DNA of 64,000 nt from Gloeobacter violaceus PCC 7421 (GTDB lineage Bacteria; Cyanobacteriota; Cyanobacteriia; Gloeobacterales; Gloeobacteraceae): contig NC_005125.1 of assembly GCF_000011385.1 (NCBI RefSeq), positions 2,356,001 to 2,420,000 on the forward strand, given 5' to 3'. This document shows positions 9,744 to 10,640 of this stretch, one piece after another (the first letter of the stretch is position 1; each line of letters starts with the position of its first letter). The notes beneath the pieces were generated by a model. The model worked only from the letters and a program-made list of their open reading frames with translations, was not told where the DNA came from and did no database searches. The position numbers and the translations under genes were made by a program.

Positions 9744-10121
9744 TTAAAGCGCTTTGGCGGCCAGGTAACCGGCCCAACCTGCCGCCAGCCCGCCCAGGAG
9801 ACTACCCAGCAAGTAACCCATCGCCGTCGGATAATCGCCTTTTTGCAACAGCACCAGGCACTCAATGCTCAAAGCACTGAAGGTAGTAAAACCGCCGCAA
9901 AAACCGGTGCCTGCCAACAGCAGCAATGCCGGGTCGATGCGCAGCGCAACGCTCCACGCAAACAATCCACCGAGCATAAACGAGCCGACCAGATTGACCA
10001 GCAGCGTCCCGAACAGGAAGGGCGGCGCACCGGCCCACTGTGATATCCCAAGACCGACCCAGTAGCGGGCCAGACTGCCGAGCGCTCCACCAACCATCAC
10101 CAACACCGACTCCCGCACCAC
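9744..10121 (-). CDS. crcB: fluoride ion exporter CrcB/Fluc
   Basis: The start is a GTG at 10121, chosen because AGGAGG sits 6 bases upstream; 125 residues is normal for the family. A longer ATG frame to 10199 would run through the candidate riboswitch. Family motifs are GGALGSLARYWVG at the start, GTLLVNLVGSFMLGGL (conserved Asn in TM2) and GFCGGFTTFSALSIE in TM3, with four hydrophobic segments. Fluc proteins are dual-topology fluoride channels in the inner membrane that relieve fluoride toxicity. Expression is probably controlled by the fluoride-type aptamer at 10150-10217. Confidence 0.93.
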   Translation of the reverse strand: MVRESVLVMVGGALGSLARYWVGLGISQWAGAPPFLFGTLLVNLVGSFMLGGLFAWSVALRIDPALLLLAGTGFCGGFTTFSALSIECLVLLQKGDYPTAMGYLLGSLLGGLAAGWAGYLAAKAL

Positions 10122-10149
10122 CGGATGCCTCCTACGCGTCGAACGTGCC

Positions 10150-10217
10150 TTAGAGACCGTTGGCCGGGGGGCGGTTCTTGCACCCGGATCGGGGCGCAAA
10201 GGCGGGCCTCACCGCCT
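10150..10217 (-). promoter_or_regulatory. candidate fluoride (crcB-motif) riboswitch, variant
   Basis: Reading the minus strand, a 5-bp stem AGGCG/CGCCT encloses the loop GTGAGGCC (10200-10217). Then comes an 8-bp hairpin TTGCGCCC/GGGTGCAA and, further on, GGTCTC (10153-10158). The loop GAGGCC can pair with GGTCTC with one G-U, giving the pseudoknot expected of the crcB motif. The first stem-loop differs from the Thermotoga aptamer as I remember it by little more than one A-to-G in the loop. Deviations are that A-to-G and about 19 extra bases before the pseudoknot strand. Position just upstream of crcB supports the call. Confidence 0.55.
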
Positions 10218-10223
10218 GCTTTC

Positions 10224-10253
10224 AGGGTAGAAGGCGAAACCGAGAGCCGTCAA
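10224..10253 (-). promoter_or_regulatory. possible crcB promoter
   Basis: On the minus strand TTGACG (10248-10253) is separated by 18 bases from TACCCT (10224-10229). This would start transcription at about the first base of the candidate riboswitch. The -35 match is good, the -10 match weak. Confidence 0.45.
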
Positions 10254-10325: not shown

Positions 10326-10349
10326 AAAAGGCCCCCGAAGGGGCCTTTT
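10326..10349. terminator. intrinsic terminator after tmRNA, symmetrical
   Basis: A 10-bp stem (AAAAGGCCCC / GGGGCCTTTT) with a 4-base loop is flanked by A and T runs, so it could work in both directions. On the minus strand it lies just after the coding piece of the permuted tmRNA. Confidence 0.9.
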
Positions 10350-10640
10350 GGGTAGTTTTGGTTTACAAGGTTATCTACCAACCCCGCCTTACTCAGGCCG
10401 CGACAGTAGCGCGGGCGCGAGCGAAGGGAACTACGTTGTTAGTAGCACTTGGTTTTTTGCTCTAACCGAGCAGGCTTCAGTTACGCTCTAATTGCCCTGT
10501 CGAAGCCAGTACATCCCCGAGTTGGTGGAGATGAGGGGAATCGAACCCCTGTCCAGAACAGCCGATCACGCACCCTAGTCTCCCTTTTCACGTACGTTGG
10601 GGAAAGACAAACCAACGGCAGCTTTTAAGTCTTTGCGGGA
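10350..10640 (-). ncRNA. ssrA: permuted two-piece tmRNA precursor
   Basis: On the minus strand the acceptor piece comes first: a T-arm with GGTTCGATTCC and a 3' end CATCTCCACCA finishing at 10523. After only four bases (ACTC, 10519-10522) the coding piece begins GGGGATGTACTGGCTTCGAC (10518 downward), the usual tmRNA 5' half. GGGGATG pairs with CATCTCC to form the 7-bp acceptor stem with one G-U. The tag frame is at 10393-10446, followed by the terminator at 10326-10349. This 3'-half-before-5'-half order is the circularly permuted form known from some cyanobacteria, alphaproteobacteria and betaproteobacteria. The 5' end of the acceptor piece is not defined; a -10-like TAGAAT at 10649-10654 suggests about 10640. 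Confidence 0.92.
10393..10446 (-). other. tmRNA proteolysis tag reading frame
   Basis: The frame reads ATNNVVPFARARATVAA followed by TGA. The ending VAA and the motif NNVVPFAR match cyanobacterial tmRNA tags of the type A-N-N-I-V-P-F-A-R. The alanine resume codon is GCT at 10444-10446. Confidence 0.9.

Follow-up and report, generated by a model that had tools for sequence, protein, structure and literature searches.

A conserved variant of the fluoride riboswitch aptamer with a putatively compensated core in the crcB leader of Gloeobacter violaceus

Gloeobacter violaceus PCC 7421 carries a crcB (Fluc) gene within the 64,000-nucleotide stretch of DNA analyzed here, hereafter the window. The coding region lies at 9744..10121 (-), with a probable GUG start codon at 10121 deduced from its spacing to the Shine-Dalgarno sequence, and its product is CrcB by both PF02537 (93 bits, E 1.5e-26) and TIGR00494 (91 bits against a cut-off of 80). 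From 5' to 3', the leader comprises TTGACG-N18-TACCCT, a stem (P1) with its loop, an 8-bp hairpin, GAACC, a second stem (P3), CAAC, GGUCUC, UAA and, later, AGGAGG and the GUG. The segment from P1 to residue A49, 10151..10216 (-), is a variant fluoride-type aptamer, and the Shine-Dalgarno sequence AGGAGG lies downstream of it at 10128..10133 (-). The putative -35 box TTGACG (10248..10253, -) and -10 box TACCCT (10224..10229, -), the latter matching TATAAT at 3/6 positions and ending 7 nt before P1, belong to a pattern found in all five leaders of the window's family: TTGAC(G/T), a spacer of 17-18 nt and TAC(C/G)CT, within a conserved TAC.CTGAA stretch. A strict promoter scan reported no promoter for the leader. 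Since the promoter-like pair ends 7-14 nt before P1 in these leaders (7, 7, 14, 7 and 8 nt), the transcript probably starts at the aptamer. Directly upstream of the leader, at 10330-10624 (-), lies a cyanobacterial tmRNA gene (RF01851, 177 bits; permuted-tmRNA RF04321, 122.6 bits); a tmRNA also precedes the crcB leader in the related loci L102 and L103, and none was reported in L104.

The anatomy of the aptamer is described here in T. petrophila numbering, using a mapping made in this analysis from published pairs. P1 (GGCG/CGCC, 10216-10213 paired with 10204-10201, the whole at 10201..10216, -) closes an 8-nt loop, GUGAGGCC, that can be read directly as G6 (10212), U7 (10211) and the pseudoknot 5' strand GAGGCC, G8-C13 (10210-10205). 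An additional hairpin, P2, of 8 bp with a 6-nt loop (UUGCGCCC-CGAUCC-GGGUGCAA, 10178..10199, -) is inserted in J1/3, and is followed by the junction GAACC and P3 proper, GCC-CCCC-GGC, which the Rfam alignment places at 10163..10177 (-). Core positions 38-41 read C A A C (10159..10162, -), the canonical sequence being U G A U. The pseudoknot 3' strand, GGUCUC, occupies positions 42-47 (10153..10158, -), with U44 at 10156, and forms 6 bp with GAGGCC, one of them a G-U pair. U48 (10152, -) pairs with A40 (10160) to form the linchpin; because our sequence descriptor requires both bases, their presence has no independent count.

An earlier note on this DNA had proposed a crcB-motif pseudoknot fold at 10150-10217, and its P1, 8-nt loop and GGTCTC complement are real. 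Its "P3-like hairpin" at 10199-10178 was misassigned, being the additional hairpin between P1 and P3; a register with this hairpin as P3 is ruled out because P3 falls in the next stretch both in the Rfam alignment and in the relatives. The "19 extra bases" said to separate P3 from the pseudoknot strand (GAACCGCCCCCCGGCCAAC) in fact contain the conserved AACCGC junction (GACCGC in the G003 relative), the true P3 (GCC/GGC) and positions 38-41. That a conserved loop A reads G is borne out by G6, which is not an isolated defect, being matched by the change of U38 to C.

The Rfam model of the class, RF01734, aligns to the window in this same register at 10225-10144 (-), treating the extra hairpin as an insert, with a score of 14.7 bits against a gathering threshold of 34. 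The corresponding E value is 0.16 for 401 nt and 4227 families, which, divided by 4227 by hand, becomes about 4e-5 for the single family. At the gathering threshold this family has no match in the whole 64-kb window, and nothing was reported over the organism's own genome (a single contig of 4,659,019 bases), so a plain library scan misses the aptamer. A tight descriptor consisting of P1, loop, ACCG, P3, A40, the 6-bp pseudoknot and U48 gave one match in the window and 0.1 per dinucleotide-shuffled window; since 30/300 shuffled windows held at least one match, a sequence of 64 kb is long enough for such matches not to be rare. Rescaling by hand to the roughly 150 nt that precede crcB, correct strand only, gives a chance of about 1 in 10,000.

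The reality of the element is settled by its covarying conservation in five genomes of the family, together with the wider set of aptamers described below. Homologs of crcB were sought in 10 near genomes, nine of which have one, and further crcB loci came from a search of genome contigs. Within the window's family G000-G004 carry crcB, and all five leaders (window, L102, L103 or L021, L104, L105 or L022) hold the aptamer; G005 gave no crcB match. The earlier note had staked its proposal on homologous upstream regions keeping the pairing, which the five crcB loci of the family do; four more distant crcB loci, L106, L107 and L108 from other families of the same order and L109 from the same class, are without the element by eye and with our models R2 and R3. 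In alignment A3 of the five family aptamers, the pseudoknotted structure has 99.0% of its cells paired and four pairs with double-sided changes, and its covariation score of 0.267 was equalled or exceeded in 2/500 shuffles, while control structures slid by 1-3 columns had 38-54% of cells paired and 0-1 double-change pair. Compensatory changes fall in P1, where one pair is CG, UA or UG, in the extra hairpin, and in the pseudoknot, the last pair of which reads C-G, U-G or U-A. With 97% of its cells paired and two pairs changed on both sides, the inserted hairpin is a conserved helix despite its differences in length, being compensated (G-C, C-G and U-A at one pair). It looks as if the J1/3 junction tolerates insertions, of which the Gloeobacter-family hairpin would be the extreme case. 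When the aptamers of L072 and L095 are added and the extra hairpin is left out of the rows, five pairs show double changes, three of them in the pseudoknot; the third P3 pair is CG, UA or GC in this wider set and is unpaired in L095. That a variant crcB-type aptamer precedes crcB, the central proposal of the earlier note, is thus upheld by the identity of CrcB (PF02537, TIGR00494) and by the conserved, covarying pseudoknot.

Two covariance models extended the search. R2, modeled on the Gloeobacter-family form with the extra hairpin included, recovered all five family genomes among 388 genomes of the class; its other 15 matches there (20.7-26.5 bits, including a second in G001) were judged background, five by alignment and ten by score alone. 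Over 82 loci (78 crcB loci and L106-L109), R2 picked out L072 and L095, two MAG loci that carry the identical exchange at positions 6 and 38 before crcB operons. Applied to 149 genomes of the phylum of L072, it gave matches of up to 29 bits, and the 20 inspected (L132-L151) contained no aptamer by descriptor. R3, built from seven aptamers (the five of the family, L072 and L095) with the extra hairpin omitted, was searched against 40 genomes, 332 of the phylum of L095, 296 of that of L072, 246 of that of L034 (a Planctomycetia record), 198 of the Streptomyces phylum and 267 of that of L067, all of these sets overlapping. Inspection covered 31 of the 40 places matched in the 296 genomes of the L072 phylum and 20 of the 22 in the 40-genome set. 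The 267 genomes of the phylum of G562, the Bradyrhizobiaceae MAG that is the source of L067, gave a single match, L211, which is not an aptamer. RF01734 itself scored above its cut-off in 16 out of 59 genomes searched, and 20 places from that search were taken as loci, the others being weak.

The aptamer type with C41 and U44 was found, ahead of crcB, in the Gloeobacter family and in Actinomycetota (Streptomyces, Embleya), the latter represented by L072, L172, L175, L176, L178, L212, L213 and L214. Three of these reside on PLSDB plasmids of Streptomyces sp. F8 (L212), S. nigrescens (L213) and Embleya sp. NBC_00888 (L214); they come from a survey in which five of six plasmid crcB matches were read (the sixth being Nocardia farcinica, H9) and 3/5 had the aptamer. 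The other two, L215 (Streptomyces fungicidicus) and L216 (Nonomuraea gerenzanensis), had no aptamer by descriptor or R3. The record containing L072 (1422-1992) is titled "Acidobacteria bacterium" and may be mislabeled: its genome groups with the Streptomyces phylum, where we place it because the same genomes recur in the two phylum sets. Between P1 and ACCG there are 7-8 nt in L175, L176, L178, L212, L213 and L214 and 4 nt in L072 and L172, compared with mostly 3-4 nt in canonical aptamers. All 13 C41/U44 aptamers fall below the RF01734 gathering threshold of 34 bits: besides the window, L072 scored 17.0, L172 22.9, L175 19.3, L178 16.8 and L176 15.6 bits, the plasmid loci L213, L214 and L212 scored 21.5, 19.5 and 18.2 bits, and L102, L103, L104 and L105 had no score reported. 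The earlier note had counted the lack of a significant score from the crcB covariance model against its proposal, and the score of the window does stay below the threshold; we attribute this to the make-up of that model, since it holds for all 13 aptamers of this type. The G6:C38 exchange occurs more widely, in at least three settings (the Gloeobacter family, Actinomycetota and the Patescibacteria-group locus L095) plus L202, and L095 and L202, which combine it with U41/C44, score above the cut-off at 36.8 and 44.4 bits. The L202 aptamer had no plasmid match.

The core substitutions are linked. A script that left positions 6, 38, 39 and 41 free, and constrained 44 only by its pairing with 11, extracted 56 distinct rows over all loci, from which L104 minus and L132 were dropped as non-aptamers. 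In the resulting 54 distinct aptamers, which are counts of sequences and not of evolutionary events, positions 6 and 38 are A:U in 39 and G:C in 15, with no A:C or G:U, and positions 41 and 44 are U:C in 41 and C:U in 13, with no U:U or C:C. Position 39 is A in 15/15 G:C aptamers and in 4/39 A:U aptamers. Another six aptamers, recognized by eye where the script had failed to find them (L007, L015, L016, L156, L157 and L194), all have A6, U38, U41 and C44, and no mixed combination at either pair was seen in an R3 recheck of 43 sources (34 matches). Some bias against mixed forms is possible, as the training sequences were G6:C38 aptamers for R3 and canonical ones for RF01734. L095 and L202 look like intermediates between the canonical and C41/U44 forms. 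L095 (G6/CAAT) and L171 (A6/UGAU), both of the Patescibacteria group, agree in their pseudoknot strand, are almost alike in P3 and are each followed directly by a similar MFS gene, and their CrcB proteins pair in the tree, in which the L171 row is a fragment; we regard the two as a natural swap in place at the 6:38 core. On a tree built from 27 CrcB proteins, at least two changes are required to account for the C41/U44 type; the starred branches force only one. Two origins of the type are likely, because a single C41/U44 clade is rejected, if weakly (p-AU 0.038, for a group chosen before the tree and by a small margin).

A CrcB protein was found downstream of 13/13 C41/U44 aptamers (the window counted as L101), of L095 and of 13/39 canonical aptamers; for 14 canonical cyanobacterial rows among L001-L017 the seed HMM found no CrcB within about 1.5 kb of sequence. 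The L202 aptamer is followed by a CLC channel (PF00654, E 1.9e-70) that reached the cut-off of no NCBIfam CLC model, so that it is at most a candidate fluoride-type CLC. The Saccharibacteria operon of L095 (236-1474) starts with an MFS transporter (PF07690) followed by two crcB genes. By annotation, L212 (1016-1930) and L215 (784-1942) are crcB - DUF190 - crcB operons on Streptomyces plasmids, and reading frames in L175, L176 and L178 resemble this arrangement by eye; flanked in this way by two Fluc genes, DUF190 may contribute to fluoride tolerance.

How the aptamer might control crcB was approached by folding. The Shine-Dalgarno sequence is complementary to the pseudoknot 3' strand, and when folded without constraint the two pair with a mean of 0.82 in the window and 0.74 in L102. 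Under a holo-like constraint this pairing is lost (0 in the window), and the last five Shine-Dalgarno bases are then unpaired in part (0.34-0.65). L104 and L105 differ: there the pseudoknot strand finds its partner around the GUG start, and the holo-like fold retains some of this helix. The free fold of L103 shows neither pairing (its holo-like fold was left out, the constraint being misplaced). By folding, release of the Shine-Dalgarno sequence is thus clear in 2/5 leaders and start-codon pairing is seen in two. A translational ON switch acting on crcB is plausible, given that the pairing predicted for the unconstrained leaders of the window and L102 ends under the holo-like constraint. In L095 the aptamer leads on, by eye, to a hairpin that resembles an intrinsic terminator and has the pseudoknot strand within its 5' arm.

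The Mg2+-F- cluster of fluoride riboswitches is bound through backbone phosphates near positions 6-8 and 41-42, and base identities could therefore change if geometry is kept. The tRNA Levitt pair, for example, can be A-U or G-C. In the fluoride riboswitch A6-U38 is a reversed Watson-Crick pair (PMC11586693; PMC10687018, there A10-U38) and A40-U48 a reversed Hoogsteen "linchpin" (PMC8752731). The B. cereus equivalent of U41 contacts the phosphate of 44 through N3-H and N7 of 43 through its 2'-OH (PMC8004769, numbered 3 lower). A U-turn in the neomycin riboswitch has the same contact pattern, and there U-to-C is tolerated or neutral via an N3-protonated C (PMC6061696). The B. cereus switch no longer responds to fluoride once U41 is mutated to A, a mutant that was used as the unresponsive control (PMC11077080); fluoride binding might accordingly be weaker or different with C41.

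On the evidence of sequence, the crcB leader of the window belongs to the fluoride riboswitch class as a conserved variant whose core is compensated. P1, the 8-nt loop, the 6-bp pseudoknot 3' of P3, the junction, P3, A40/U48 and the downstream crcB are all present; the A6:U38 pair, U41 and a gathering score of 34 bits are absent, three departures that keep us from classing it as a standard member of RF01734. We consider it very probable that the leader contains a fluoride-riboswitch-type aptamer, homologous to RF01734, whose core has been rewired by matched substitutions and which acts as an ON switch, and the aptamer most likely works like a standard fluoride riboswitch. G6-C38 replaces the reversed Watson-Crick A6-U38, A replaces G39, and C41/U44 replaces U41/C44; the Mg2+-F- cluster would still be bound. 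C41 would keep the U-turn-like contact by means of its amino group or of a protonated N3, and the G11-U44 wobble may shift or adjust the contacted phosphate, or the base partners may exchange donor and acceptor. Fluoride would then stabilize the pseudoknot and pull GGUCUC off the crcB ribosome-binding site (off the start-codon region in two relatives), and the freed site would permit more translation of the fluoride channel.

A more specific possibility, to which we give a low probability, is that the C41/U44 aptamers form a distinct, acid-tuned subclass that senses fluoride and pH together: if the U-turn contact depends on protonation of C41 at N3, fluoride binding would tighten as the cytoplasm acidifies, the moment at which HF enters. 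If true, such an RNA would so far be known from the Gloeobacter family and Actinomycetota, below the library cut-off. It is unlikely that the homologous aptamer instead has a different or broader ligand by now, or no longer binds fluoride tightly, leaving a crcB leader that responds to Mg2+ or pH. The residue replaced by C41 is the one at which U41A kills the fluoride response (PMC11077080), and the core change is identical in 13/13 aptamers of the type, a fixed state and not drift; against this, the C41/U44 type still precedes the fluoride exporter gene crcB, the helices are kept, and the G6:C38 intermediates pass the Rfam cut-off, one of them preceding a CLC channel. Very unlikely, in our view, is a ligand-free two-state leader regulating crcB, in which GGUCUC pairs with either the P1 loop or the junction ACCG, forming a CGGU:ACCG hairpin. 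The RNAalifold consensus does pick this helix, which is 97% paired in the five family leaders, and CGGU is fully complementary to ACCG in 11/13 C41/U44 aptamers, but the helix is without compensatory change and is broken in the two aptamers with CAGU, where U13 pairs with A42. Such a leader would also leave the linked 6:38 change unexplained, and in the unconstrained leaders of the window and L102 the strand pairs with the Shine-Dalgarno sequence instead. Chance resemblance in a G+C-rich spacer, for which the descriptor rate of 0.1 per shuffled 64-kb window and the sub-threshold Rfam score might speak, is exceedingly improbable in view of covarying conservation in five genomes, close before crcB each time and matched in Actinomycetota.

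The rewired fluoride-type aptamer makes the geometry of this riboswitch testable, through matched double substitutions at the tertiary pair 6:38 and at the core contact 41/44. U41, whose A mutant has been the unresponsive control (PMC11077080), is natively C in two bacterial groups. The C41/U44 subclass, Streptomyces sequences included, is missed by the reference model RF01734 (13/13 below the cut-off), and the published estimate that only about 15% of Fluc genes are under riboswitches (PMC11139923) may be low for that reason. The accessible portions of the literature hold no description that we could find of this variant, nor of C41 always accompanying U44. A member of the type may already have been seen in S. 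cattleya without being set apart, as this organism is said to use fluoride riboswitches (PMC11139923).

Compared with RF01734, the window aptamer is alike in P1 with its 8-nt loop, the AACCGC junction, P3, the 6-bp pseudoknot, A40, U48 and the downstream crcB, and differs in having G6:C38 rather than A6:U38, A39, C41 with U44, the J1/3 hairpin and a score below gathering. The aptamers of L095 (a Saccharibacteria MAG) and L202 (from the phylum of a Planctomycetia MAG) share with it the 6:38 swap and A39 and, unlike it, keep U41/C44, are without the extra hairpin and score above the RF01734 cut-off. The crcB leaders of Actinomycetota differ from it in having no Gloeobacter-type J1/3 hairpin and a pseudoknot strand of GGUCCC or AGUCCC, yet share the entire rewired core of G6, CAAC and U44.
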